Positions 648 to 27,107 of a DNA stretch of 64,000 bases are shown here, piece after piece. Source of the stretch: Ilyonectria destructans (taxonomy: Eukaryota > Ascomycota > Sordariomycetes > Hypocreales > Nectriaceae); assembly GCA_020740775.1 (NCBI GenBank), contig JAHEWK010000013.1, positions 248,001-312,000 on the forward strand. Direction: 5' to 3'. Under the pieces are notes generated by a model. It had not been told where the DNA came from. It saw only the letters and a list, made by a program, of their open reading frames with translations, and did no database searches. A program made the translations under genes and the position numbers. Numbering within the stretch: position 1 is the first letter of the stretch; each line of letters begins with the position of its first letter.

Positions 648-1949
648 TTACTCCGCCTTGATTCCCATTGTCGCAATCTTACTTCGCATGTCCGTAACCC
701 ATCGTTCCTTGTACATCTTTTGGGACAAGGCTGTTGAGTCGATTGCAGGGTTCCTCAACATGCGCATAAATCCATCCTCGCGTTCAACGTCGACGGGGTT
801 ACCCTGAAGGCGTGTTTTATTTTGCGTCGTCATCGGATCCACGAAGTAGGCAAAGACCTCTCTGCGGACGTCTGCGTAGACATCTAGCACCAGCTCTGGA
901 TAACCCTCATTGAGAACCATGATCAGAGAATCTGCCAAAGCCTCGGCATCAAGCAGACCTGTAGAGAGTCCCATCGCACCCAGGGGCTGTGCATATGGGA
1001 AGTCAGCAGAGGTTGCTTGGGGACATGTTCGATACAACGTACGGAGTTCAGATGAGCAGCATCCCCAACTAGGAGACATCTACCTCTTTTCATGGTCGAG
1101 GCGAGGCGTTGATGAATGTGATACACCGTCTTCTGCTCAACCTTGTACTCCAGCGGTCTCTTTCCTACCATGATCTTCTCGTAGAAAGAGTCAAGATTCT
1201 CTGGCGCCAGAAGCTCTTCGTCGGTACGAGGATCTTGGCTGTCAACTGCAACCGCATATCTCCAGTGCGATGTTTGTCCCAACTTGGGAGGCGACAACGG
1301 AATTACCACGGCCCAATTGACAGGGTCGATGATAAAATGCGGTGCGACATGCGGCATTTCATCATTCACCCGGGTTACGTTGGTCGTAATGACGCGCTCT
1401 GGCCAAGTATGGCCTGGGAAGGGTATCTTGAGGAGCGACCGAATAGTGGACCTTCCACCATCACTTCCCACTAGGTAAACTCCCTTGAACTTCTCCATGT
1501 CTCCGGATCCAAGGTTCTTGACATTGAGGGTCACACTGTTCTCGACCTCCTCGATTGCGGTTGCTTCTGCCTGGTAGTGGACAGTGACATTTCCTGTGCG
1601 AACGGCTGCCTTCTTAATGATCGCAGCTAATTTAGACTGAGGCAGCATGAGCTGCTTGTCTTGAATATGTCCAAGTTGCTTGCCAAATGTCTTGCCGCCG
1701 TTGCCGTTGTCGACTGGGGGGGAGCGAAATAAGAGGCCGTTTTCCCTCATATCCTTCGATGGACACGGCGTCCCAGAGTCCAGATTCTTTAAGCAGGGTT
1801 AAGATAGGGCCATAGTACCCAGAGGCTCGCGGTGACTGGTCTGGTTCTGTTAATTTCTCAAACACGTCAACCTTGACGCCTCGCTGTCCAAGTCTCAAAG
1901 CTGTAAACAGGCCAACTGGCCCAGCCCCGACAATCAAGACATTCGACAT
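648..1949 (-). pseudogene. FAD-dependent aromatic monooxygenase (PHBH/phenol hydroxylase type), frameshifted
   Basis: Group A flavoprotein monooxygenase of about 415 residues, expected to hydroxylate an aromatic ring in the cytosol with NAD(P)H and FAD. The N-terminus has the FAD dinucleotide fold (GAGPVGLFTALRLG, residues 8-21), then a DG-type motif (GSDGGRS) and the GD motif (LLVGDAAH). The start at 1947-1949 puts the GxGxxG motif at the usual place. One intron fits well: 987-1042, 56 bp, donor GTACGT, branch CTGAC, acceptor CACAG. It restores GDAAHLNS-PLGAMGLSTG. The first about 66 codons and the rest are in different frames. The frame changes at about 1745-1752, between ...SIEGY and MRENGLLF..., with no room for an intron, so a 1-nt indel (real or a sequencing error) breaks the gene. 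It is divergent from the dienelactone hydrolase at 2471. In this context a protocatechuate or hydroxybenzoate hydroxylase producing hydroxyquinol is attractive, but substrate cannot be read from sequence. Confidence 0.8.
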
Positions 1950-2151
1950 TGTGTGGAATTGATACTTTAGCTGAATTTAGGAATGGTTTTCGTGCCTTAA
2001 TGTTGAACGGAAAATACAATGTTCTTGTTTTCTGGCAATTGAAAACTTGCTCTGCCAATAAGCGAGCCCCAAAGGCAGCACATACTCTTATTGTAGAAGC
2101 GGAGAACCGCTTGCTAAACTTGCTAAACTAAACCAGGCCTATCGATACTGA

Positions 2152-2281
2152 CCCCACCGATAGCGGCGGGGGCTCGAAATGAGATTAGCACAGCTTCTCC
2201 TCACCCCATTGTCCACATGGTGCAGAGCCGCCCGAGGGAGCGAGTCAGTTTGGGTGGGGAGCTAGAGAGCTCTGGTGGGGA
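2152..2281. promoter_or_regulatory. Divergent promoter with GTGGGG-type sites
   Basis: Between the divergent monooxygenase and dienelactone hydrolase lie CCCCACCG (2152-2159), CACCCCATT (about 2202-2210), GGTGGGGA (2253-2260) and GGTGGGGA (2274-2281). The last two are direct repeats 21 bp apart, or two helical turns. GTGGGG fits the CreA/Mig1 consensus SYGGRG, and it also matches the words found before the dioxygenase, TAXI and decarboxylase genes. Binding by CreA or by the local C2H2 regulator is inference. Confidence 0.45.
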
Positions 2282-2470
2282 GCGTCCACCAAACTAACCT
2301 AGTGCAACAGTAGCTCTTGGGAGCTTTCTATTCACGCTGCGAAAGGTTTTTGTAACCCGTTGCCCGCTCGTCCAAGTTCATGTTTAACATTTTCCGTCAT
2401 CGCAACTCATCCCAGCTCTACTGTCCCTCAAAACATATTCTTTGTTCATTCTTGATAGAGCATTCAAATC

Positions 2471-3398
2471 ATGACATCTCACAGTCTGGGACCCTGCTGC
2501 TTCCAGGGCGTCAAACATGAAGGTGAAGTTCATGGACGGTTCGAAACGATTGGCGACTTCGAAGCCTATGTCACCGAACCAGCATCCCCAAACGGGTGTG
2601 GCATACTCTAGTACTGTCTTCACCGCCACCATCATTAGAGGTTTGCCTAACAGACAACCAGTCTCACGGATATAGTAGGATACAAATTTAACAATGCCAA
2701 GCTAGTTGCAGACCAATACGCGGCAAACGGGTACAGCAAATGTGTCATCATTGCAAAGCATCGGGCTAACACCCTCTGCAGATATCTCGTCGTGATGCCT
2801 GACCTGTTCTATGGCGACCCGGTCCCCTTGAATGCCGACATGGCGACTTTCAACCTCCCGAACTGGATGCAAGGCCAACTAGGAGCGAAGAAAATTCCTC
2901 ACACACCCCAGACGGTGGACCCGATTGTCGAACAATCGCTCCAAACTCTTCGCGACAAGTACAAGTGCAAGGTCAGAAAACTCACGACCCGTGGCATCAT
3001 TACCAGTCAGCAGCACTAACAGCGTATCACAGACAATCGCAGTCGCGGGGTATTGCTTCGGCGCCAAATACGCGGTGCGAGCTCTTGCCTCAAGCAATAT
3101 CGATGCTGTCTTTATTGCTCACCCTGCCATGATTTCCAAGGAGGAACTGGAAAATATAAAGGGCCCTCTGGCTATAGCAGCCGCAGAAATTGATGCCATT
3201 TTCCCTGCTAGTGAGCGGCACGAGTCGGAAGAGACTTTGAAGAAGCTCGGAACTCCTTTTCAGATCAATCTTTACTCGGGGGTTCACCATGGATTCGCGG
3301 TGAGATGTGACCTGAGCGACAGAGTGCAGAGACTTGCGAAGGAGTCTGCTTTCCTCTTGGCACTTCAGTGGTTTGAGGCTTATGCTTTGAAGAAGTAG
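2471..3398 (+). CDS. Dienelactone hydrolase family protein
   Basis: Alpha/beta hydrolase of the dienelactone hydrolase family, 254 aa. Such enzymes open lactones formed after intradiol ring cleavage, or hydrolyse related esters, in the cytosol. Exons 2471-2610, 2662-2730, 2782-2971 and 3033-3398 (sum divisible by three). Introns are 51, 51 and 61 bp with CTAAC branch points. The N-terminal signature PCCFQGVKHEG (residues 8-18) supports the start. The triad is complete: nucleophile C141 in GYCFG, D187 (AEIDAIFP) and H219 (GVHHGF). PDLFYGDPVPLN (76-87) is typical of the fungal members. It is divergently transcribed from the FAD monooxygenase and next to an intradiol dioxygenase, which suggests a ring-cleavage pathway. 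The exact substrate is inference. Confidence 0.9.
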
Positions 3399-3862
3399 AT
3401 GCCTGCTCATCTTGTTAGAAAAATAAACGTCTTTCCAACTTCGCATTTGGGATGATTGTTCGAATCCTACCAAGTCTCTTACTAACTATTGAACGAGCTG
3501 CCCGCTCCACCAAGAGTAAGTTACCGGCACAAAGACCAAAAACCCCAGTTTTCCCCATCACACACCGAGACAGCTACGATGACTTTCACCCGAGCCCTCA
3601 TCGGCGCGCCCGACCTATTGAACGAGGCTGCGATCACCTCTCAAGTCGAATATCACATCTCCCGCCCCTTACTAACATACCAATAACCCTCCACCTTGCG
3701 GCAATTGAGAGGGAAAACGCAGTGTCTATTCATGCATCACGGAGCGGCGCTCCAAGAGTTGACGAACATAACTTGTTTCTAGCAAGTGTTGAAAGCATTC
3801 CATTCGAGATAGGCAATTCAATTGATTGTAGCTTAAGGTTATGAGAGCTTGTCATTTGCTAT
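3399..3862. other. Convergent intergenic spacer
   Basis: Spacer between the 3' ends of the dienelactone hydrolase (+) and the dioxygenase (-). Short open frames here lack protein-like composition. It probably holds both 3' UTRs and terminators. Confidence 0.5.
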
Positions 3863-4968
3863 TCAGTCGACATCGGGAATTGGCATCCCATTCCATAGTT
3901 TATACTCAAAGCCTGCAGCGCCAAACGCCTCCTGCGTCTTCTCATCTCTCAATTTGGCCGACTCTTGTTCAGTCACAAGCACGAAGTCGCGCCTCAAGAC
4001 CTTACTCTGTGCCGAGACTCCGTATTTTTGTGCCGTATCACCGTCAATTTGGTCAAGGTCGACAAGAAGGGATTTCTTCACCCCAAACACCGGGTCACTG
4101 CTTTCGAAGGGGTCTCCGCGGAGGTATAATGCTCTAGAGGTGCACGCAGTCAGAAACCTGATCAATATGTCATACAGGAGGATACCCACGTGATGAGGTG
4201 ATCGAACTTATCCTTTTGAAACATGAAATGCATATGGCTCGGCCTATAAGCATGTCGACTTAGCAGCTTCAGAAGCTTTCCGACAGGTCCGTCATGCGGA
4301 ATCGGATACGGAACAGGTGTTATCGCCTTGAACCAGAAGGCTCCGTTCTTGTCGCTTTTGATGACGCATCTCCCATCTGCAGCCTTTCGGTCTGCGTATT
4401 GCGTGTCGTAAAGGCCAGTCGAATCCGTCTCCCAGATATCGACATTGACACCCTCAATCGGCCTACCGGAGGTGTCTTTTATGGTGCAGAGCACTAGAAG
4501 CGGCTCGCCGTTAGGGTCATGCGACATCAATTCTCCGTTGTTCAAGTCCGGAGCATCATGAGTATGAAATGGTCCCAAAAGTGTGCCTTCGGTCGAATGC
4601 GGTGGTTTCGGGTGATCGATTGAATCCACCACGAGGGAAAGACCCAGAATATCTGACAGTAGGATGAATTCCTGTCTCGTCAGAAACAAGTGCTAGCAGC
4701 GATGCGACCATATGCCTCTTACCTGTCGCAGTTCTGTACATGTCTGGCCGGTTTCCGTCAGAAACTTCAACCCCATCATCCACTCTTCCGAACTCAGTCT
4801 GGTCTCTCGCGCGAAGTCATGAAGATGAGTGACCAGCCGTTCAATCACCCATTTCAAACGGGGATCAGGGCAGAGGGAATTGATTGTGTGGACATTCTGC
4901 GTGATGTTATCTGCCGAAAGATCCATCATTGGTGGTATCTGGCGCTTGATTTTGATTGCGTCGTCCAT
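3863..4968 (-). CDS. Intradiol ring-cleavage dioxygenase (hydroxyquinol/catechol 1,2-dioxygenase type)
   Basis: Non-haem Fe(III) dioxygenase, 332 aa, cleaving a catechol or hydroxyquinol between the two hydroxyls. Exons 4968-4723, 4671-4190 and 4133-3863 (sum divisible by three). Introns are 51 bp (donor GTAAGA) and 56 bp (donor GTGGGT). Residues 1-about 100 form the helical dimerisation domain typical of fungal and bacterial catechol/hydroxyquinol dioxygenases. The catalytic beta domain follows, with VDIWETDSTGLYD and AYRPSHMHF. The four iron ligands are all visible: Y170, Y204 (VPYPIPHDG), H228 and H230. Length and the N-terminal domain fit hydroxyquinol 1,2-dioxygenase rather than extracellular short intradiol enzymes, and no signal peptide is seen. 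With the monooxygenase and decarboxylase homologues nearby, hydroxyquinol to maleylacetate is the favoured reaction (inference). Confidence 0.9.
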
Positions 4969-5180
4969 ATTTTCACAGGCTCGGCAAGAAACCTCTAAAT
5001 AACACGTTCAGCTTTCGCTGCTAGGGACGTTCGAAGGAATTGGTTACAGTGGACAATTTTTGAATGTAGCTTCCCCAGTTGAGATCCAGGGACCAGGACT
5101 AAATGAGATAAACACGCACCTCGGGTTAAGATATATCTACAACCAGCCCAGCCTCATCGTATTCTGTCTTCTTCGAGTAG

Positions 5181-5255
5181 ATGGGGTAAGTAACTACCTA
5201 CAGTATACACGCTGCAGGTGGGGTAAGATAAACCAAGGCAAACGACATACCCCAC
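5181..5255. promoter_or_regulatory. Inverted GTGGGGTA/TACCCCAC pair upstream of dioxygenase
   Basis: GTGGGGTA at 5218-5225 and its exact reverse complement TACCCCAC at 5248-5255 are separated by 22 bp. A related ATGGGGTAAG lies at 5181-5190. The pair is 250-290 bp upstream of the dioxygenase start (4968) and downstream of the regulator's stop (5432). It resembles the pair before the TAXI-type gene. Confidence 0.5.
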
Positions 5256-5431
5256 GTGTAATGTTGGCAGGAGAATCAGGGATGGAGTACAGACCAATGA
5301 TTACGGAGGGATACAATCGGGCACCTAATCATTAATCGGATGATGAGGAGTGTAATGCTTATTCATCAAGGTCATTTTCATGTTCCTCGTCCAGTCCGAT
5401 GAGAGTTGTATCATCAATACTTGATTAAGAA

Positions 5432-7908
5432 CTAACAAGCCGCCAGCTTTTGACTTTCAGCGTAGTTTTTCAACGCATTAGCCAGTGTCGTTTGGATACC
5501 CCACACTGCAGAAGATTCCAATACTAATGCCCAGGCATATATCAATTGTGTCGAGTGAGGCTTTTGTTTGTTCGATTGCCCAATGTCTACCTCCGCAAGA
5601 ATCTCTGCCACTAGTTCCATACAATCTTTTTCGTCACTTGTTCGCTTATATTCAGGGCGGGACGAGACCTCTCTCATCCACGCGCTAGCGAAGAGACCTT
5701 GCATGCGAACATTAGAGCCATGTTATAATAGCATGCGGGGAGACTCACAGCATTCTATTGAGACAAGGTGTAGCTGTAGGCTGTGTGGTAGCACCCTGCC
5801 TGGAGTCTTCAGCGCCATGCCTAGCCTGATTCTTGTTCGAAGTGACTGCAGAGCATGTACAGCAGTCCTCAGTGTCGAGTTGGAACTATCGATCTTTATG
5901 GAGAGCTCCTTCATGCTCTGTGAAATTTTCATTGCGTCTAGGGAGACTATCGCAGATCGAACCGACGAAAAGTCTGTGTGAAGTCTCATGTGCGCCAATC
6001 GAAGCAGTGCAGCTGCGTTCGATGAGACAGCACCATGGGGGTTGCGAGACGACAGTGAACATTCCGAATCTTCTTCCCAGAAGGCTTGCCACTTTTGAAT
6101 GGCCAAACTTGATGCCTGGAAACTGGATGCCTCAAAAACTGACGCCTGGAAGAAATCCCACGTATTGCCTCGGGTCCAGATTTCGGGTTGCAATCTCCAC
6201 ATCCGTTGCACGATCGCATGTAGCATTACATAGGCCCCAAAGCTGCTGATCCTGTTGGACTGGGGCTGTGAAGATGAGAGAAGACCGCCTAGGGCCTCAT
6301 TGAGGCGAGCTTCATTGCCCTGGATTTGCTTTCTGCCTTCCAACCAAGTCGCAGGTGTGGTAGCTGCCCAGTCGCTCTCGCAGCAGGGGAGTGGAGCGTC
6401 ACCCATTTCACAGTTGAGTAGAGGTGGAGCTACATTATAGCAGATACTGAGATTGTTCAAAATGACGAAGCCAGCGCATTTTGTTCTAGAGCCCTTGTTA
6501 CTGAACCGTCTCCAAGGTGGATGTTATAACTTACCGTACGGATGTCTCGCATTCGATCCAATTCTTCCACAGAGTGAAAGTGTCTTCGTTAGGGCTAAAG
6601 TCATTAAAGTCGGGAGCCTTCTGATGGCGCAAGATCTGAAAGGGTTAAATTCCGTCCAACGCGGGTCAAGAAGAGCGTACAGTTGCTAATAGAGACGCCC
6701 ACGACAAAGCCTCGTCAAGCGGTTTGCGCTTTCCATCGGCTATGCCGTAAGCTATGAGAATCACGATCGATTGTATCAACCACCCAGGTTGCTCCTCCAT
6801 TGGCAAAGCAAAATCAGAATCAATCTGTCACTTCTCAGTCTCGTTGATCATCGTCCGAGGGCGCAGGGAGGTTCACTTACATGCTTAATGACCGATACTC
6901 GGCCGGCTCGATACAAAGCCTGGGCAGTGATGCTGTCTCCGTTGTAACAGGCACTTAGCGAGGCCATGGCGATCAAAAGGGTAGGATGAGCAGACTCCGC
7001 CCTCCAGGTTGGAACGTGGACGAAGGGCAGGTAAGTCAGGAGGAACTCAAAACAATTGTTGAGGAGCCTCTCAAACGCGAGACACGAAGGGAGTCTCAGG
7101 CTGTCCATCTCATTGCTCTGCGTCAATTTTAGTCATGTTGGGACAGTATATGGGCGGCAAGGATTCTTCAACGTCCTACCTGAGCAAACACGGCTCGAAC
7201 TTCTTTTTCCAGGTCATTACGCTTGTCGATGGAGATCTCACAGGACCCTCTCCAATCCTGTTGGCTAAGTTTGGTCGAGAGGCTGGAAGACGGGGAGTAC
7301 GTGGGATTGAGGAGGGTGCTGTCTCTTTGGTCCAAACGTTCACCGAAGGTCTCACCTCCGAGCAGTGTGTCGTCGGATACAAATGGAAAATCCCTGCCGT
7401 CAAGAAAGTAGTCGATTTGGTCAATGGAGCTCATGGACGGTTGAGACATGAAATGGAGCACAGCAGAGTCATCTGGAAAGGCCTCCATTTGAACGGCACT
7501 GGTTGTCTCTGGCACCTCTTGTGCCGACTGATCCTCTGGTTGTGCTGGGAGGGAGCTTTCTTCCACGGCGGGTGCCGCCGTATCCACAGCAGCATCTAGT
7601 GCTAGATTCATTATTGAGTCGACTCTAGACAAGGCAGAATGGTAGCGTAAGTGATGGCGTTTGATGACATCTTTACGGGAAAATGTACTCTCGCAATGGT
7701 TGCACTTGAAGGGCTTTTCGTTTCGGTCTGGGTGCGAAGTCAGCATAAGAAGGCAGCTAAAATCCCAAGGGTATTAGGGATGCTTGTGGGGATGCTTGCG
7801 GGAACGCTCGTGCCTGGTGAGGTGCTCGGCGCGTGCGAAGGACCTTTGACAGTAAGAACATCTAAGCTGGGCCCTCGTCTGGTTCCGCCTTCCGCTGCCG
7901 GCAAGCAT
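5432..7908 (-). CDS. C2H2 zinc-finger / fungal-specific transcription factor
   Basis: Putative nuclear regulator, 713 aa, probably controlling the surrounding catabolic genes. Exons 7908-7800, 7727-7180, 7117-6881, 6824-6681, 6635-6535, 6485-5749 and 5697-5432 (sum divisible by three). Two tandem C2H2 fingers sit at the N-terminus: C17-C20-H33-H37 and C45-C48-H61-H66, joined by a classical linker ending NEKPFKC. The first intron is best read as GC-AG (donor GCAAGC at 7799). The alternative GT donor 6 nt upstream stays in frame but destroys the H-x3-H spacing of finger 1. After a Ser/Gln-rich linker, residues about 260 onward (FLLTYLPFVHVPTW; then ETSVRTKCAGFVILN) match the fungal-specific transcription factor regulatory domain. 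Introns are mostly 45-72 bp. The position between enzyme genes suggests a pathway-specific activator, which is inference. Confidence 0.85.
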
Positions 7909-9460
7909 ACTCGGGGTCGGATTCGGGCCGTTGCCCCAAAAGATCAAGATTTGTTTAGTCGTAAGGCCCCTAGAAGGTCAGAGGAGCCATGGTAGTTTGG
8001 CTGATTGCACCTGCGACTCTATTCAGCTCTTGTCAGGCTTGGTCCTTCTTTCGCCTCGCAGTTAATCACAATATCCCTGCTGGTTGAGACGGCGATTGGC
8101 AGCTGTGCAACGGAAGGTAGTCGGCTTCAATCGCAGAGGAAGAGGGGGCGGCTGGCATGCACCGCGACTTCGTGAGGTCCGAGGGATCCACCTCCCCTGG
8201 AGTAATAATTGTTAGTGTCTTACAAAACAAGGTGGACCAGTTGTGACATCAACGATACGTCATGGTGAAGGTCCCATATCGAAATTGAGGCTTTTTTTAG
8301 ATACAAATTGGCCCTGCACACTTGTCTTGATACTCCGACCGTCCCTTCCAGGCTTAGCTACGGCCGATCGTCCCAAATGCAGATGTATCGAAATAACAAT
8401 TATTACCTCGAGGGAGGCGTAAATAAATCCGGGGTTGCCGTGCAAGGCGCTAACACCCCGCTTCTCCGCAAAGCTTTGAAGCGTGGACCAGGATGTAACT
8501 TACATGGGTGACTAGACTAGACCTATTTGGACAGTCATGATGATTGTGCCCTGAGCGACTGATTGATTTATGCTATGAAAGAAGTCGCCAAGTCGGCATA
8601 CCCTGCTCGCCCCGTACCTAGAACATACTCTCGGGCCACCGTTCATTGACAAAACATCACACTTGGAGGCTCATATGATTCAAATACCCCGAGTTCATTC
8701 GAGTAACGGCCATGTCTTATGCTCACCATTACGTGAATCGTCATTGGGTCAAGCTAGAGAAGATTGGAGACTAAAAAGCGTTGGAACCCGGGGTATACCG
8801 GACTTCTTCCCCTCCTTTTAGCGTCGGACATACACAAGACTCCGGGGCCGCTGAGTAACTACCAGCTAGATACCATTTGGTGCTCCTCGGGCCGTCTTCG
8901 GGTGGTCTTCAAGTCGCGAGGAGTGATCGATTCCACCGACCGAGGCTGTGTAGAGCAACGAAAATATGGCCGAGTATGGAAATACAGTTCTCATAAAGTT
9001 AATTTTTAGTAAAAGATGTTTCGCCGGGCATGGTACAATCAGAGCAAGGGGGAGAAGAGACGCCGGGTGGCATCCTCTCAGGTGAGTTTAGTTCAAATTC
9101 TCGTATACATAGTTACTCGGCGAGACTTCGCTATATCCTCAGCGACTTGGAGGCCTTTACGATGATTCGTGTCCACTTCAGCCATATCAGACTCCATGTC
9201 TTTGCCCCAATTCCATCTGCACATGGTCTACTTTTCCGAGGGTCCGATGCGGCTCCTACTGCGCGTATTGTAAACGGTGGGGTAGGCAGCGACCACCACA
9301 GATCGCACTACCCCACCGGCTTGATTGACACCGATGGATGCCTTTGCTCTCTTGCTCTAGATTCTGGGTCATGGAGCTTGTTGACCTCAGGGCCATATAT
9401 ACCCCGAGGCGAGAATAGTCAATCGAGAATGTCACCAAATACAAACAGTACCAGTTCAAA
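7909..9460. other. Intergenic, divergent promoters of regulator and TAXI-type gene
   Basis: About 1.5 kb with no supported gene. The open frames at 8308-8511, 8764-9009 and 9030-9536 look random, and the last overlaps the start of the TAXI-type gene in another frame. The region holds the upstream sequence of the regulator on the left and of the TAXI-type gene on the right. Confidence 0.5.
9275..9318. promoter_or_regulatory. Perfect 11-bp inverted repeat CGGTGGGGTAG ... CTACCCCACCG
   Basis: Left arm 9275-9285, right arm 9308-9318, exact reverse complements with a 22-bp spacer, ending 142 bp upstream of the TAXI-type start codon. The core equals the pair before the dioxygenase gene. It looks like a site for a dimeric or paired zinc-finger regulator. 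Confidence 0.55.
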
Positions 9461-10525
9461 ATGTCCATCCCCATCGCAACTGCTGTGGATTACAAAGGCA
9501 GAAACCGTCCGTCCGAAGGACCTGTCGCAACTCTAGTCGCCAAAGATGACCCTACCATCGACCGCAGTGTGACTCTCCGCTGCATTGGTGACTGGGGACA
9601 CGCCAATTTCCATCGGGTCATGGCATTCATCACCCAAGAATTGACTGAACGCTGCGGCCCAACCAGCAGGACCTGCATTTGGAGCGTGGCTGGTGGTGGT
9701 ATGGAAATTACGGATTCTATCTCTTCAGGGTTCGCCGACATTGCCATCAACACGCCTGTCAAGTTGATCAAGAATGCCTTGACCGGAACAGGCCCTTGGG
9801 AATCACGAGGCCCCGCGCCACATTTGAGAGGCCTAGCGACGATTCCTCAAGATGATCGAATGCTCTTTGCAATTGATCCGTCTCTGGGTTGCAAGTCTTT
9901 TGCAGATATTCGACAAAAGAAACCCAAGCTCAAGATCATATTGGGGCCAGACGGGGAGAGCCCCATTGGCTATGTCTGCCATCGCTACCTGGAGGCACAT
10001 GGAGTCTCGGTCGACACCATCAAGTCTTGGGGCGGCGAGGTGGTGTATGCTAACAGGCCTGAGGAGTGTCTCGTTCCGTGCCAGGATCCAAGCCTTGGCT
10101 TCAATGCCGTTATCAACGAGGCCTTGATGACAGACTGGTGGGTCCAGTTGATTGATGGCCCTCGGGGTTTTCTTCCGATGCCTGCCGAACCCGAAGCATT
10201 GACGATCATCGAGAAGACGACTCCCGGACTACCAGGGTCGACAATTCCTGCCGGGTACTGGAAGAGTCTCAAGGAGGAAATTCCAGCCCTCGAGTTCCTC
10301 GACTTCATCCTCATGTGTCGTGAAGACTTGCCGGAGGATGTGGCCTACCTCATCACTTGGATTTTGGTCGAGAAGAAGGCCAAGATCGAGGTCCAGTTTC
10401 ACAGCTTCCCGGGAAACAAGGCGCCGATCTGTTGGCCCATGGACCCAAGAGAGATGGCCAAAACGGTCTTTCCATTGCATCCCGGAGCTGAGAGATTCTA
10501 CCGCGAGCATGGATATTTGGATTGA
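9461..10525 (+). CDS. TAXI-family / periplasmic-binding-fold protein, cytosolic
   Basis: Intronless 354-aa protein. Its body resembles TRAP-transporter solute receptors of the TAXI family: GGGMEITDSISSGFADIAIN (residues 77-96), then a PBP-type second domain. Bacterial TAXI proteins are exported binding proteins. Here the N-terminus is polar (MSIPIATAVDYKGRNRPSEG), with no signal peptide and no TRAP membrane partner nearby, so a cytosolic enzyme or sensor role is more likely. The downstream neighbour belongs to the 4,5-dihydroxyphthalate decarboxylase family, which uses the same fold. This protein may therefore be a second decarboxylase or a binding accessory for the same substrates (inference). 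The fold assignment is fairly safe; the function is unknown. Confidence 0.75.
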   Translation: MSIPIATAVDYKGRNRPSEGPVATLVAKDDPTIDRSVTLRCIGDWGHANFHRVMAFITQELTERCGPTSRTCIWSVAGGGMEITDSISSGFADIAINTPVKLIKNALTGTGPWESRGPAPHLRGLATIPQDDRMLFAIDPSLGCKSFADIRQKKPKLKIILGPDGESPIGYVCHRYLEAHGVSVDTIKSWGGEVVYANRPEECLVPCQDPSLGFNAVINEALMTDWWVQLIDGPRGFLPMPAEPEALTIIEKTTPGLPGSTIPAGYWKSLKEEIPALEFLDFILMCREDLPEDVAYLITWILVEKKAKIEVQFHSFPGNKAPICWPMDPREMAKTVFPLHPGAERFYREHGYLD

Positions 10526-11453
10526 GGGCGCTCAGAAGGTGGACAGGTAGAGGGGATGCATGCATTGCATGGTATTCGGTCTGCGTCTGCCAAGCACCGT
10601 TAGCTTCCCGGACATTACTTCACCAAAAATGTTGACAATTACGACATCCAAGATTCCTGAATAGGTTGGGGCTGGGGAACGTGTTAGTAGCTATCAAGTC
10701 TGTCGTTATATCATATTGCTTGTTTGCTCATCTTGTGGAACGTTCTGTAAACACTACTATTTAGAAAACAACATTCTCTGAATTAGCTTTTCATCCCCAA
10801 AAAGCCTTAGGTCCAAGGGAACTAAGCAATCCTTATAAGCTTTTTATAAATACTTAGTCTTACAGTCGACCTTTCATCGCCGTCTAGTCATACCTAGTTT
10901 TCCTAAAGAGATCACACTTAGTTCTAGTGATAGTATTTTTATTAGGCAGTCTTACAAATACTAATAGTAATTCGTAGCTATAACAAAGGACTAGATAGAG
11001 AGCGGTCTAGGGTGTGGTAGCAGTTAGTGCCTTTACTTTCGTAACAAAGGGCTATTCGGGTCGGGTTGGACCTAGTTCGTGTAGGAGTACGTTTTCCAAG
11101 AGGCATTTGAACTCGCCACAGGGCCGCCATCTCCTCCTGTATGCACCCATCGGCGCTGGAAGGCAGCTCACGTGAACTTTGTCCCGAATTAATGCCCTAA
11201 CAAAAGCCGAAAGCCGAAGGTTGAAAACTTTCGATGCTAATAACTTCAGTGCCGGTGGGGTTTCACCTACAAAGGCTGCCCGCACCACAGATGGGGTAGT
11301 CGGACTCTTCGGACTTCTCGGTCTTCCGGTCCCTAGGGGCGAATTCAGCCGATTTACTGCCTTACCGTGTACTATATGTATTCTGGTAGAGCAGTTCGCG
11401 AACTTCTGACAGGTTCAAAGGAATTTCAGACAGGAAATACCCCAATCCACAAA
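10526..11453. other. Intergenic with probable repeat remnant and decarboxylase promoter
   Basis: Contains AT-richer sequence at about 10,620-11,050 without coding signal, possibly an old repeat remnant. The last 200 bp carry CGGTGGGGT (11253-11261) and ATGGGGTAG (11291-11299), both like the cluster motif, upstream of the decarboxylase start. Confidence 0.45.
11253..11299. promoter_or_regulatory. Two GGGGT-type motif copies upstream of decarboxylase
   Basis: CGGTGGGGT at 11253-11261 and ATGGGGTAG at 11291-11299 lie in direct orientation, about 155-200 bp before the start codon at 11454. The same words occur at the dioxygenase and TAXI promoters, there as inverted pairs. Confidence 0.4.
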
Positions 11454-12582
11454 ATGGTGCTTCGCCTTTCGTTTGCCTGCTGGGATTATGACCGAGTGAA
11501 GGCCATTGAAGATGGAAGAGTTCGTCCCGAAGGAATAGAACTTACCTTCTTGAATTATCGTGTCGAGGAAACGTAAGAGGCTTCGAATGTCGTTGCGGCC
11601 GTTTGATTCGACCAGCTAATACCCTACCCTACACCAGCTTCTTTCGTCAACTGCGATTTCAAGAATTCGATGTCTCGGAACTCTCGTTGTCATCGTATGT
11701 GATGACACTGGCTCAAAAGAACCCACCATTTATCGCGCTGCCTGTGTTCCCCTCGAGATTCTTCCGCCACCAGTCCATCTATGTCAACAAGAATGCCGGA
11801 ATCTCGACGCCGAAGGACCTGAGAGGGAAAAGGATTGGCATTCCCGAGTATCAGAGTTCGTCTTCAGTCTCCTAAAATGGCACATCGCCCCCTTTAAAAT
11901 AAATTTTCTGACTTTATCCACAGTGACAGCAGCGGTGTGGCAGCGCGGGATTTTGGAAGAGGACTTTGGTGTACCGTTGAGCAGTGTGCATTTCTTCGTG
12001 GGGGCCATAGAGCCATCCGCGCAGCCACGGATTAGCAAAATCTCTCACAGCTTGCCAGAAGACATCAAGGTCACCCCCATTGGTGCGGGCCAGAATCTTT
12101 CCGAAATGCTCGCCAGCAACCAAATCGATGCCATTTTCAGTGCTAGCAAGCCTTCGTCAATGGACACGTCGCCTAACGTTGGACGTCTCTTCAATAACTT
12201 TAAAGAGGTTGAGTCTCAGTACTTCAAAGATAAGGGCATTTTCCCCATAATGCATGTCATAGCGCTCAAACGGAGTGTATACGAGTCGAATCCCTGGATT
12301 GCGAAGTCTTTAACCAAGGCTTTTGCGCAGGCGCTGGACTTTGCCTACGACGCAGTCTTAAACCGCGCTGCATTACGATATATTTTGCCTTGGTTAGAAG
12401 ATCATGTTGAGGAAACGCAGAGGCTGATGGGACGTGAGAAATGGTGGAATGACGGGTTTGAGGAGAATGCGCATGTTATTGATAAGTTTCTGGAATATCA
12501 TTATAAGCAAGGTCTTTCACCTCGCCGTCTTCAGCCGTCGGAGATTTTTGCACCAAATACATTAGAAACTTTTGTTATTTAA
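11454..12582 (+). CDS. 4,5-dihydroxyphthalate decarboxylase homologue
   Basis: 331-aa protein of the 4,5-dihydroxyphthalate decarboxylase family, bacterial members of which turn 4,5-dihydroxyphthalate into protocatechuate. Exons 11454-11572, 11638-11855 and 11924-12582 (sum divisible by three). Introns are 65 and 68 bp. Start MVLRLSFACWDYDRV and the motifs FDVSELSLSSYV and GKRIGIPEYQMTAAVW are characteristic, and the last two span correctly spliced junctions. The family has the periplasmic-binding-protein fold but lacks a signal peptide, as here. It is downstream of the TAXI-type gene on the same strand. A fungal ortho-phthalate or hydroxylated phthalate pathway feeding the dioxygenase is a reasonable hypothesis. 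Substrate specificity is not visible. Confidence 0.85.
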
Positions 12583-13448
12583 TAAATATTATTAGTTATA
12601 TAGCTTAATATCCTTCAATAAGGGAACCCAATGTTCGAATTTAATGTATCTTTATTATATATTAAAAAGTTACGAACTAATAGTTTCTATAGAGGCTGTT
12701 GTTAAGTAGTACAAATTAGCACTTAATTACTAGAAACTATGAGTTAGTATATTGGACCACAGTGGCAATCGGGGCACTGTGACTGGGACCTAGCCTAGCT
12801 GGAGCTGCGAGACATATAAGAGCTTGATCCCTCGCAGTCATCAAGGGACGACATCACTTTTCCAGTCTCGCACGTTTATCTTAGATTTTGGGCCCCAGTG
12901 CCAGTAATCTCTACGGCCAGCAATTCTTATTCTTTTCTCTCCAACATTTGATGTTTCCTATTAATAGGGATATAATCACACTCTCCAAGATGCAGCTGTT
13001 CCTGCAGCTTATTGAGGTATTGGGAAAGATAACCAGTTGGACTAGAAACCTTAGTCTGTTTGAGTAACTGTTAACCTTTGAATGGACTGGGTATATAGTC
13101 TGTATTGTTGATACTATTGTTGGTGTTTTTTTTTTTACTGTTGAGCTTCTAGCCCCCCCTCTGGGTATGTGTGTACTAGGGCACCCTAACCTCTTGATAG
13201 TCACACTCTCTTATATTTTATCTTAATTTTAGTAAGTCAGGTTGTTGGGTAATTCCTGTCGGAAGACCAGATTTTAGTTGGGTTATGATAAGCTGTTACC
13301 CTAGCTACCCTATAAACCTGTGCGGGTGGGTGTGGTTATTTTGGTCCAGAAGGCAAGTTCCCCCTTTTTGTAAGTATTTCTTTTAGTTCATATTATACAA
13401 GGTACTATATTTTAACTTGCTGTTAGATTGCAAATACAGTACCCAATG
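12583..13448. repeat. AT-rich spacer with solitary, weakly mutated transposon end
   Basis: 12,966-13,199 is a copy of the repeat unit seen at 32,767-33,100 and, inverted, at 31,711-32,035. It ends in the same ACTAGGGCACCCTAACCTCTT. This copy keeps C and G where the others have T and A, so it is the least RIP-altered. 12,612-12,660 resembles the AT-rich sequence around 62,430 in the same way. An open frame on the minus strand (12,911-13,204) lies inside the repeat and is not a gene. Confidence 0.65.
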
Positions 13449-14960
13449 TTAGTATATATCCTCCCAGATATACCAAGCTTTGAAACCGGTCTCAACCCCA
13501 GATCCCTTAAACACCGCTTTGAATTCCCGTCTCCTCTCATCCCAAATCTTTGAAACCTCATCCAAAAGGAGATTACCCTGGTAATCGTCCCAACCGTTAC
13601 TGCAAGGCATCTGCGCACGAGTAGGAAAATGAACCTGCACGCGCTGTAGCCCGGGAAAATCTCCAGCCATGGCTCGTTCCCCGATATGCAAGAGATCCTG
13701 CCAACACTCGTGCCATCTCTTCTCGCCAGAAACCATAGTGAAGGCGCTCATCTCGAAGCCTCGAATGGTCAAGTGGCGAACGGTAAGTGGAAGTAGTTCA
13801 GTCAAACATATCTTCTGCTCGAATGAGCCCCCCATCTTGTCGCGTCCAAAGAGGTGCCGGCAAAAGCATGAAATGTCGAGCTCGAGAGTCTGAAGGCTAG
13901 CGAATCTCCTCATCTGCTGTGTCGATATCATCATCAGGGCTGGATACTGATAGCCGCTGGCGGTTACCTTGCGTCCAAAGTCGAGACTCAAGTACTGGAG
14001 TGTGCCTTGTCGGGGCTTGAGGATTTCGATGAAGCGTGTAGGCGGCATATGATGACGTCTGACTTGAGAGTCGCCCCACGTGCCGTCACTGTCCGTGGAA
14101 AATGTGAAGGCTTTCAGGTTCGGAGCCAGCGCAATCATCTGGCTGAGGGTGTGGGTGTCGCTGTCTCCCCCGTGAAAAGACCACCCCGTCACTTGAAACG
14201 TGGTCAGGCTCTGCAGTGCAGGGCGGCAACTTTCCAGGTCGAATCCCTTGTCCAAGTCAGGCAATCTGTGTCCTTCTGTGCCTTTGAGAACCAGGGTTTC
14301 CAAGAGGGGGGTTTCGCGGAGAAAAAGAGATAGCTCCCTGCTGGCAACGCTGAAGCGATTGCACCCGCTTGAGTTGATCTCTAGGAATCGAAGCTTTGAA
14401 AACCCCGAGGCCTCTGCCAAATGCTTCAAGTGGCGGCGGAGAAAACCAAAGGTCGTCTTTTGCTTCTTCCCCTCGTCATCGGTGATATGTATCTCCAGAT
14501 GCTCGACTTTCGGACACAGAGACATTAGCAAGTCAGTCTCTAAATCCTTCTGAAGATTGCGCGGTTCGTCAACAGAGCCAATATTCACCGATAACTTCTC
14601 AGCCATTCGCTCCAAAAGAGGAAGGTTCTTGGGCTCCGCCGTCGAGGACGTAGGCAGATACAGCACCTTTACACACTGCGCCAGATCCGGTTGACGGTCG
14701 AGGGCTTGCAGAAGTGCATAGTATTGGACGTGAGAAGTCGGGTTGTGGAAGAGAATAGGTAGTGCGACGGAGCGGAAGCTTGTACTGACGTGAGTCAAGG
14801 CCTTGAGGGCTTTCACGTCGTCTCTCTGGTCGCTGATGGGGAACGTGCTCAAGGGCCCTAGGCAGCAGTGATGGCAGAAATGAGAGAAGATGACGCGGAG
14901 AATTTCAACGGGGAGGTCCTCAACGGATGTGGTGGATTTGTCATTCCTCATAGCGGCCAT
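13449..14960 (-). CDS. F-box protein
   Basis: Intronless 503-aa protein. Residues about 11-60 form an F-box (SVEDLPVEILRVIFSHF, then ALTHVSTSFRSVALPILFHN), the domain that binds Skp1 in SCF ubiquitin ligases. The remainder has the irregular leucine-rich pattern of fungal F-box/LRR-like proteins (HLEIHITDDEG, LETLVLKGTEG, LQTLELDISCF), probably the substrate-binding part. The target is unknown. It shares a short AT-rich 3' flank with the repeat to its left and shows no functional link to the catabolic cluster. Confidence 0.8.
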   Translation of the reverse strand: MAAMRNDKSTTSVEDLPVEILRVIFSHFCHHCCLGPLSTFPISDQRDDVKALKALTHVSTSFRSVALPILFHNPTSHVQYYALLQALDRQPDLAQCVKVLYLPTSSTAEPKNLPLLERMAEKLSVNIGSVDEPRNLQKDLETDLLMSLCPKVEHLEIHITDDEGKKQKTTFGFLRRHLKHLAEASGFSKLRFLEINSSGCNRFSVASRELSLFLRETPLLETLVLKGTEGHRLPDLDKGFDLESCRPALQSLTTFQVTGWSFHGGDSDTHTLSQMIALAPNLKAFTFSTDSDGTWGDSQVRRHHMPPTRFIEILKPRQGTLQYLSLDFGRKVTASGYQYPALMMISTQQMRRFASLQTLELDISCFCRHLFGRDKMGGSFEQKICLTELLPLTVRHLTIRGFEMSAFTMVSGEKRWHECWQDLLHIGERAMAGDFPGLQRVQVHFPTRAQMPCSNGWDDYQGNLLLDEVSKIWDERRREFKAVFKGSGVETGFKAWYIWEDIY

Positions 14961-15615
14961 GATAAACCGTGGTGTATTACAACAAGTTTGTCTGAGGCGA
15001 TTGCGGGGTTTTTATGTCACGTCTGACCTTAGGCAACAGTGGCCAAGAGTCGGGCGGCCAGTAGGAGGTAGTTGCAGGCGAGACGCATCAATCTGCACCT
15101 CATTTATTTGTCTGCTGACTGTTTTCTTAGAGATATCCTTGCAGCCTGCCTTTATTATCGCTGCCTTGACGATGAAAGTGCCCGCATTCCTATACGCAGG
15201 ATTTATTTGCCACCCTACAATTGTCAATAAACACTAGAACTTTAAATCACGATACGAAAAACTTACCCGTCGTCCTCTGCAGTCGCTCATCTTAGTGAGG
15301 GATATGTTGCACTGCTAACGTTAACATGTCTACCTCGGCAGCTATCTTAACGGAACTAACCACGATCTTTGTGAGACCATTTCCAGCAGTATGAAGTCAG
15401 AGGGACGGGCTGAGGTAATTTGAGAACGGTTGTCTATGGCGAACGAGCTGTGACGGGGAGGGAACAGGTCATGTTGCGTACGGTCTGCTCGGCTACATCA
15501 TCTCCCACGAGCTTTCTATTAGACCTATGTTTGACTTTAAGCCTGGTCTTGAGCAAATAAATACGAAGAGCGTATATTTCAAGTGATTTCCAGAGCCGAC
15601 CAGCTGTAAATTAGG
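14961..15615. other. Intergenic
   Basis: Upstream sequence of the F-box gene and downstream sequence of the chimeric bZIP gene. No feature identified. Confidence 0.5.
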
Positions 15616-26054: not shown

Positions 26055-27107
26055 ATGGCCCCGTCGCTCACTGCATCCGGTCTTGAAGGCATTATCAAGG
26101 ACGAAACTGGCACCAGTTACGACATCAACGATGCCACGGCCATGCCAGCGGCCTCGACTGGGTTTCGTCCGCCTAAGTTTACGGACCCCCTTGAGGAGCG
26201 CCAGTATCTGAAGGGCAGATTGGCCTTGGCCTTCCGAATCTTTGCCAAGCTCGGATTTGATGAAGGGTGAGTTCTTCTTTGGGGGGGGAGGGAGACCCCG
26301 GGTTGGCCTGGTTAACAAGTGAATGACATAGAGTGGCTGGACACATTACCGTTCGAGTATGACCCCCATTCTTGCCATTGAGACCTAGGCTAACGTTCTA
26401 GCTAGGACCCTGTCGAGCCAACAAGCTTCTGGGTCAATCCATTCGGCGTGGCTTGGCCTATACTGAAGGCTTCTGACCTTATTCGGGTGAATTCCGAGGG
26501 CAAGATTGTCGAGGGCGGCCCAGTTAAGTTGCTCAATGCTGCGGGTTAGTCTGCATATTCCGATTTTCCAGTACTAGCTAGTCCCTGGAACTAACGCGGT
26601 TCATCAGCATATATGATTCATCATGCTATTCATGAGGCTCGACCAGACGTGAATTGCGTTGCGCATTCTCACTCTGTTCACGGGAGAGCGTTCTCCACAC
26701 TCGGCCGTTCACTCGATATCATCTCCCAAGACTCCTGCGCATTCTACAATGACCTAGCATTCTATGATTCCTTCGGTGGAATAGTCCTCGGGGAGAGCGA
26801 AGGTCGCCACATCGCAGAACTGCTGGGCAACAAAAAGGCGGCCATTTTAGCCAACCACGGCCTTCTCACGACCGGCAAGTCTATCGAATCTACAGTATTC
26901 TGGTTTATGAGTCTCGAAACTTGCTGTCGAGTACAGCTCCTCGCAGATGCTGCAGCAGCTGGAAGGGGTGGAGAGGTAGTTAAGATTGCCGATAAAGAGG
27001 CTGCTTTCACTTACGCTACTGTTGGCACTGAACTTGCCGGATGGTTTTCTGCTAAGCCTACTTTTCAAATGATGGAGAGGGAGGCTGGAAAAGAGTACGC
27101 CTTGTAA
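26055..27107 (+). CDS. Class II aldolase/adducin-family protein
   Basis: 291-aa member of the AraD/FucA class II aldolase fold. Exons 26055-26266, 26332-26356, 26406-26544 and 26608-27107 (sum divisible by three), including a 25-nt micro-exon. Introns are 65, 49 and 63 bp. The Zn-binding histidines are present: H145 and H147 in VAHSHSVHG, and H209 in LANHGLLTTG. VAGHITVRDP is the typical early motif, and it is assembled across two splice junctions. The family includes sugar-phosphate aldolases, ribulose-phosphate epimerases and a few aromatic decarboxylases (3,4-dihydroxyphthalate decarboxylase). Fungal homologues are mostly uncharacterised. Given a dihydroxyphthalate decarboxylase homologue 14 kb away, a decarboxylase role is conceivable but unproven. 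Confidence 0.85.

Follow-up and report, generated by a model that had tools for sequence, protein, structure and literature searches.

The locus described here raises the question of what a fungal gene cluster does with two proteins that have the fold of solute-binding proteins. It lies in a stretch of 64,000 nucleotides from Ilyonectria destructans (hereafter the window; C5:248001-312000 in an assembly of 71.7 Mb and 74 contigs). Using spliced gene models and profiles, we observed six genes at positions 648-12582 of the window, and two of the six proteins, DEC1 and DEC2, had the solute-binding-protein fold. The initial annotation had proposed a catabolic cluster at this place. The cluster is real and most of its parts were rightly named, but DEC1 (9461-10525), the second gene of this fold, was not mentioned. 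The six genes are as follows:

648..1949, minus strand: flavin adenine dinucleotide (FAD)-dependent aromatic hydroxylase (FAD_binding_3, PnpA/MhpA-like; PF01494), with an intron at 987-1042 and a frame break near 1745
2471..3398, plus strand: dienelactone hydrolase (DLH) family protein of 254 amino acids (PF01738, E 4.7e-36), with introns at 2611-2661, 2731-2781 and 2972-3032
3863..4968, minus strand: hydroxyquinol 1,2-dioxygenase-type intradiol dioxygenase of 332 amino acids (PF00775/PF04444), with introns at 4134-4189 and 4672-4722
5432..7908, minus strand: C2H2 zinc-finger regulator (PF00096), divergent from DEC1, with several introns; the middle of its exon model is incomplete
9461..10525, plus strand: DEC1, a TAXI/NMT1_3-fold protein of 354 amino acids (PF16868) in a single exon, predicted to be cytosolic and presumed to be an aromatic-acid enzyme
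11454..12582, plus strand: DEC2, a 4,5-dihydroxyphthalate decarboxylase (DHPD) family protein of 331 amino acids (PDB 9jp7), with introns at 11573-11637 and 11856-11923

The profiles found at the locus were PF01494, PF01738, PF00775/PF04444, PF16868 and PF09084, and the spliced models gave intact frames for DLH, the dioxygenase, DEC1 and DEC2. Aromatic-acid catabolism is well supported as the role of the cluster. We consider it probable that the six genes form a regulated cluster with which the fungus degrades a hydroxylated aromatic carboxylic acid, some of them being of likely bacterial descent, and that DEC1 is most likely an enzyme acting on the same class of compounds. DEC1 is the new part of the locus, and a stronger lead than a clustered fungal DHPD.

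DEC1 matched PF16868 and had the TAXI solute-binding-protein fold, although it fell below the cut-off of the NCBIfam model TRAP_TAXI (54 vs 84 bits). It was 94% identical to a protein of Fusarium solani-melongenae. Bacterial relatives were collected with two peptide patterns, DWGxANFH and R-x-D-[LM]-P-[DE]-D-x-A; the best 80 of 134 confirmed places gave 78 loci, and 77 were counted, leaving out the broken copy at L102. Relatives with E 1e-49 or better and at least 32% identity were called near, a split that was set after the scan; an initial tblastn over the loci had shown some catabolic matches before, and the permease count came later. A TRAP permease was seen nearby in none of the 55 near loci as against 15 of the 22 distant ones (Fisher p 4.8e-11, for loci that are not independent). 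Ring-catabolism markers showed the opposite distribution, with 33/55 near and 2/22 distant loci; the ferredoxin-reductase query, matched at one distant locus as well, was not scored as such a marker. DEC1 had a DLH gene beside it at 13 near loci and a DEC2/DHPD gene at five, while neither was found beside it at the distant loci. At L048, its company included a dioxygenase of the hydroxyquinol type (E 9e-97 to PDB 8r2x, as against 7e-37 for the catechol type) as well as a maleylacetate reductase (E 6e-106 to 3w5s); at L044, it lay with an iron-containing alcohol dehydrogenase (Fe-ADH), DLH and a Rieske oxygenase.

Three further proteins without a Pfam match were seen at these bacterial loci. 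Two are encoded by L048:14028-14681 and 14681-15256, occurred in 16 and 15 of the 55 near loci and in 0/22 distant ones, and are possibly an undescribed enzyme pair. The third (unk362, L047:10920-12005) was present at 13/55 near and 0/22 distant loci, which it shared with an alcohol dehydrogenase.

A crude hydropathy test detected no signal-peptide-like stretch in the DEC1 of the window. Such a stretch was likewise missing from all 55 near bacterial relatives and from the 25 first-listed proteins (12 of which name a fungus), and was present in 11 of 19 distant relatives, L097, L112 and L120 having been left out of the distant set. We also observed that T98, Q130, D132, R133, E220 and W227, which are polar and lie at cleft positions, were near-invariant in 74 near DEC1 sequences, whereas 11 TAXI proteins did not show this conservation; the comparison drew on P0149, on 17 of the 25 first-listed proteins and on 11 of the 22 distant loci. 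In a set of sequences collected independently of the scan pattern, D132 occurred in 53/53, and E220 and W227 each in 54/54. With no permease, no signal-like stretch and the cleft positions replaced, DEC1 was rejected as an ordinary transport protein. It could instead be a non-enzymatic protein inside the cell that kept solute binding without a permease and serves as a carrier, a binding protein or a sensor of a co-inducer. DEC1 is not known to have enzyme activity and the conserved cleft could merely bind a ligand; moreover, a TAXI-TRAP transporter is reported for phthalate uptake in denitrifiers (PMC13040137). We nevertheless regard a pure binding role as unlikely. We prefer to read DEC1 as a predicted cytosolic protein with TAXI solute-binding proteins as its ancestors, most likely an enzyme on the same aromatic-acid class and perhaps a second decarboxylase.

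The initial annotation had proposed a search for the same neighbourhood in other fungal genomes. Here a shared contig was taken from identical base-pair totals, plus the same species where named; one longest contig was shown per protein cluster, so that further linked cases may be hidden. Relatives of the FAD gene and DEC1 lay together on five contigs, of 3159391, 3418229, 93645, 45906 and 32313 bp, with FAD identities of 88, 65, 40, 58 and 58%, respectively. The first belongs to F. solani-melongenae and the third to Cadophora DSE1049, while two are just 32 and 46 kb long. Relatives of DEC1 and DEC2 shared two contigs, that of Cadophora DSE1049 (93645 bp), which thus bears all three, and one of Aspergillus californicus (106563 bp). 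Because these pairs are linked elsewhere, the gene grouping at 648-12582 looks above chance. Within the present genome, a FAD relative was found within 10 kb at 5 of 21 dioxygenase places (a weak fragment and the place in the window are counted), where about 0.8% would be expected per place.

The genes could still be unrelated chance neighbours, some of them decaying. The frame break of the FAD gene, the large size of the DLH and dioxygenase gene families and the AT-richer spacers 3' of DEC1 and DEC2 would fit this. We consider it very unlikely, since the FAD-DEC1 and DEC1-DEC2 linkages recur on other contigs, bacterial DEC1 is adjoined by DLH, DEC2 and hydroxyquinol genes, and four of the frames are intact. 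The spacer at 10600-11440 matched only itself in a genome search, which does not prove it rare. Just downstream of DEC2, at 12986-13200, lies a short repeat of about 214 bp, dispersed over the genome in at least about 40 further copies, most of them at 90-98% identity.

DEC1 has two paralogues in this genome, on C4 and C11, the C11 copy having two in-frame TAG codons. Both sites (C4:1812-1823 kb, covered by L034 and L035, and C11:213-222 kb, by L036 and L037) carry a class II aldolase, a DLH and an NmrA-like gene in mirrored order. Questin-oxidase-like and Zn2Cys6 genes were confirmed by profile at C4; those at C11 are alike by eye only. In the window, a class II aldolase/adducin domain piece (PF00596) is seen at 26595-27104, 14 kb from the cluster.

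Several points weigh against the preferred reading of the cluster and of DEC1. The F. solani-melongenae FAD and DEC1 relatives have locus numbers 60 apart, so that this pair is perhaps distant and there may be no tight cluster there. Ilyonectria robusta, whose DEC2 is 98% identical, had no DEC1 or FAD relative among the matches listed. The comparison of fungal company covered three of the six genes, through relatives of the FAD gene, DEC1 and DEC2. For the bacterial loci, 22 of the 55 near ones had no ring-catabolism marker in the DNA examined, and the permease query was one fused permease, which split TRAP permeases could escape. The conservation of D44-W45-G46-A48-N49-H51 is partly circular, DWGxANFH being one of the two scan patterns, and that of R287, D289 and A295 is so for the second pattern, including in the distant set. 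Finally, the copy of the FAD gene in this genome has a broken frame.

DEC2 is the homologue of 4,5-dihydroxyphthalate decarboxylase that the initial annotation had named. It matched PDB 9jp7, an entry named 4,5-dihydroxyphthalate decarboxylase, over residues 3-330, nearly its full length, with E 8.2e-78, and is placed by its sequence with the DHPDs. The same entry was absent among the best 50 fold matches of DEC1, although the two could still share a fold. DEC2 is single-copy in the genome, and 58 columns were invariant among 17 fungal and bacterial sequences of its family. A clustered fungal decarboxylase had been thought notable; the case is weaker than that, since a fungus is named in 48 of the 120 DEC2 relatives listed (the best 120 of 7525 matches), both Ascomycota and Mycena-type Basidiomycota. 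These names rule out rarity in fungi. DEC2-like genes are common there and this part is not new; an A. niger gene had already been noted in 2007 (PMC2375020).

In the DEC2 tree (71 chosen rows), the fungal sequences and two environmental rows formed one clade (support 100/97), adjoining a clade that holds named actinobacteria (94/93). Since the tree was rooted at its midpoint, the direction of transfer is inferred; transfer from bacteria to fungi would be the simplest reading. A second tree was likewise built from a choice of the matches, with 60 rows. Among a few of 196 plasmid records whose contexts were read, the sphingomonad relatives on Novosphingobium pCAR3 and Sphingobium pAS1 (51-54% identity) lay in phthalate-4,5-type operons with a Rieske oxygenase, a Gfo/Idh dehydrogenase and a quinolinate phosphoribosyltransferase, and a Phaeobacter plasmid relative had a Rieske oxygenase and a pair annotated as TAXI/TRAP beside it. 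Of 394 genomes of an actinobacterial class, four had a DEC2-family match (query P0088) at E 1e-90; their loci (L141-L144) stand outside the tree. An Amidohydro_2 gene was next to the DEC2 relative in three of them (L142-L144), a LigXa_C/Rieske-type oxygenase gene was present in two (L142, L144), and the LigK equivalog of protocatechuate 4,5-cleavage scored above cut-off in two (L143, L144), while L141 had gentisate-type genes instead. A Microbacterium relative was located between class II aldolases inside a dioxygenase operon, and a Cupriavidus relative (43.6%) was amid homogentisate-type, non-phthalate genes. Across the few loci read, the family is tied mostly, not solely, to phthalate and protocatechuate.

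The hydroxyquinol-type intradiol dioxygenase was also confirmed. The protein matched PDB 8r2v (E 2.4e-86) and the hydroxyquinol 1,2-dioxygenase 8r2w (E 1.2e-82), compared with 2.8e-29 for the best catechol dioxygenase and 1e-8 for protocatechuate dioxygenases, and is clearly hydroxyquinol-type by sequence. Against NCBIfam, only catechol/chlorocatechol models were matched, below cut-off. The two Tyr and two His residues that we take to be the iron-ligand motif (Y170, Y204, H228, H230) are all present. The DLH, too, had been rightly named. For the FAD aromatic monooxygenase, the family was correct (PF01494, E 2.2e-36; best PDB match PnpA, 6ain, E 1e-41), while its frame proved to be broken once. 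Using tblastn with the F. solani-melongenae relative (88% identity), we observed a complete gene in three aligned blocks with one intron and one frame break; the break points either to damage of this copy or to a fault in the assembly, and relatives with an intact frame exist. An intron was rejected as the cause of the frame change, because no GT-AG pair of the right phase was seen by eye and the relative aligns gapless on both sides. Of the C2H2/fungal-TF regulator, the zinc finger was found (PF00096, E 7.7e-07 when the N-terminal exons were joined), while a Pfam scan of its exon pieces did not recover the fungal_trans domain. Its first intron, from 7799, is probably of the GC-AG type and, as read by eye, restores the zinc-finger linker.

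The region upstream of the window contained one further candidate:

L033:8312-9943 (C5:246312-247943), minus strand: cytochrome P450, just outside the window on its upstream side, sharing the strand of the FAD gene

This gene may be a member of the cluster. Its closest solved relatives are animal P450s, which are uninformative on the substrate. Beyond it, an FAD_binding_3 piece and a fungal_trans factor were seen.

The gene content, the reading frames, the fold, the conserved company and, by the crude test, the missing export signal were observed; every chemical step of the following scheme we infer. DHPD removes one carboxyl from 4,5-dihydroxyphthalate, yielding protocatechuate, and by this homology DEC2 would remove a carboxyl without oxygen to give a protocatechuate-like acid. 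PnpA and HspB, the two closest solved relatives of the FAD enzyme, swap a ring substituent for a hydroxyl group (ipso chemistry), which would suit the conversion of protocatechuate to hydroxyquinol; the group that the FAD enzyme would exchange could thus be a ring carboxyl or a different para substituent. Maleylacetate is the product of hydroxyquinol dioxygenases and would be formed here by ring opening, the family of the dioxygenase being well supported. DLH would hydrolyse a lactone or ester intermediate, and DEC1 would act on a carboxylated ring of a related kind, perhaps in a second decarboxylation. No Fe-ADH (maleylacetate reductase) match was found in the cluster; an Fe-ADH elsewhere could reduce maleylacetate, and a dioxygenase/Fe-ADH pair lies at C1:6848550-6850282.

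The route from dihydroxyphthalate to maleylacetate had been part of the initial annotation. The hydroxyquinol-type dioxygenase, the DHPD homology and the PnpA/HspB-like FAD enzyme uphold portions of it, and the phthalate start and the complete route lack support in the form given. Phthalates as the natural substrate, converted through 4,5-dihydroxyphthalate to protocatechuate by DEC2, to hydroxyquinol by the FAD enzyme and to maleylacetate by the dioxygenase, would agree with the bacterial phthalate operon contexts and with LigK at two of the four actinobacterial loci. However, a search of the genome for a phthalate-type Rieske oxygenase detected none, giving only partial matches of 25-29% (best E 8e-6), and a dicarboxylic substrate would thus need another source. 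The missing Fe-ADH, the Cupriavidus context and the lack of any step for DEC1 also speak against it. We find this route doubtful, and phthalate as the substrate is unproven. Speculatively, a dicarboxylic substrate could come from elsewhere, for example from a methoxylated phthalate O-demethylated by the neighbouring P450.

A broader proposal, quite possible but held tentatively, is that DEC1 represents the fungal branch of an unrecognised cytosolic enzyme family, derived from TAXI proteins, that acts on aromatic acids in bacteria and fungi, perhaps as cofactor-free decarboxylases. Its recruitment to catalysis would be separate from that of the DHPD lineage, both travelling together in catabolic clusters and from bacteria to fungi. 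Searches of the open-licence literature, judged mostly from the listed entries, showed no cytosolic TAXI-like enzyme and no fungal phthalate cluster of this make-up; the main text of PMC13094099 does not contain the words 'phthalate' and 'decarboxylase'. Many PF16868 and DHPD-family proteins carry labels of transporter parts. Should the near relatives of DEC1 prove to be enzymes, aromatic-acid catabolic enzymes of soil bacteria and fungi would be concealed within a named transporter family, routes for the degradation of pollutants and lignin would have to be re-annotated, and two different binding-protein lineages would have become enzymes for related steps and crossed domains.

Compared with known systems, DEC2 resembles 9jp7 and the proteins of bacterial phthalate operons over its whole length. 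Those operons include a Rieske dioxygenase and a dihydrodiol dehydrogenase, whereas the fungal cluster has neither and its DEC2 is eukaryotic and intron-bearing. DEC1 shares its fold with TAXI-family TRAP solute-binding proteins (PDB 8u79 and 8s4j, and 4ddd and 1us4 under other names), but differs from them in lacking a signal-peptide-like stretch, in the replaced cleft positions, in its catabolic-cluster setting and in having no TRAP permease among the six fungal cluster genes or at the 55 near bacterial loci. Thi5/NMT1 (HMP synthase) was also among its fold matches. That protein is a solute-binding-protein fold serving as a cytosolic enzyme, with a lineage and chemistry (thiamin pyrimidine synthesis) unlike those of DEC1. 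In the Scedosporium hydroxyquinol pathway cluster (PMC8283699), a hydroxyquinol 1,2-dioxygenase lies in a catabolic gene group, as it does here; the present cluster has no adjacent maleylacetate reductase and adds DEC1, DEC2, DLH, the FAD hydroxylase and a C2H2 regulator.

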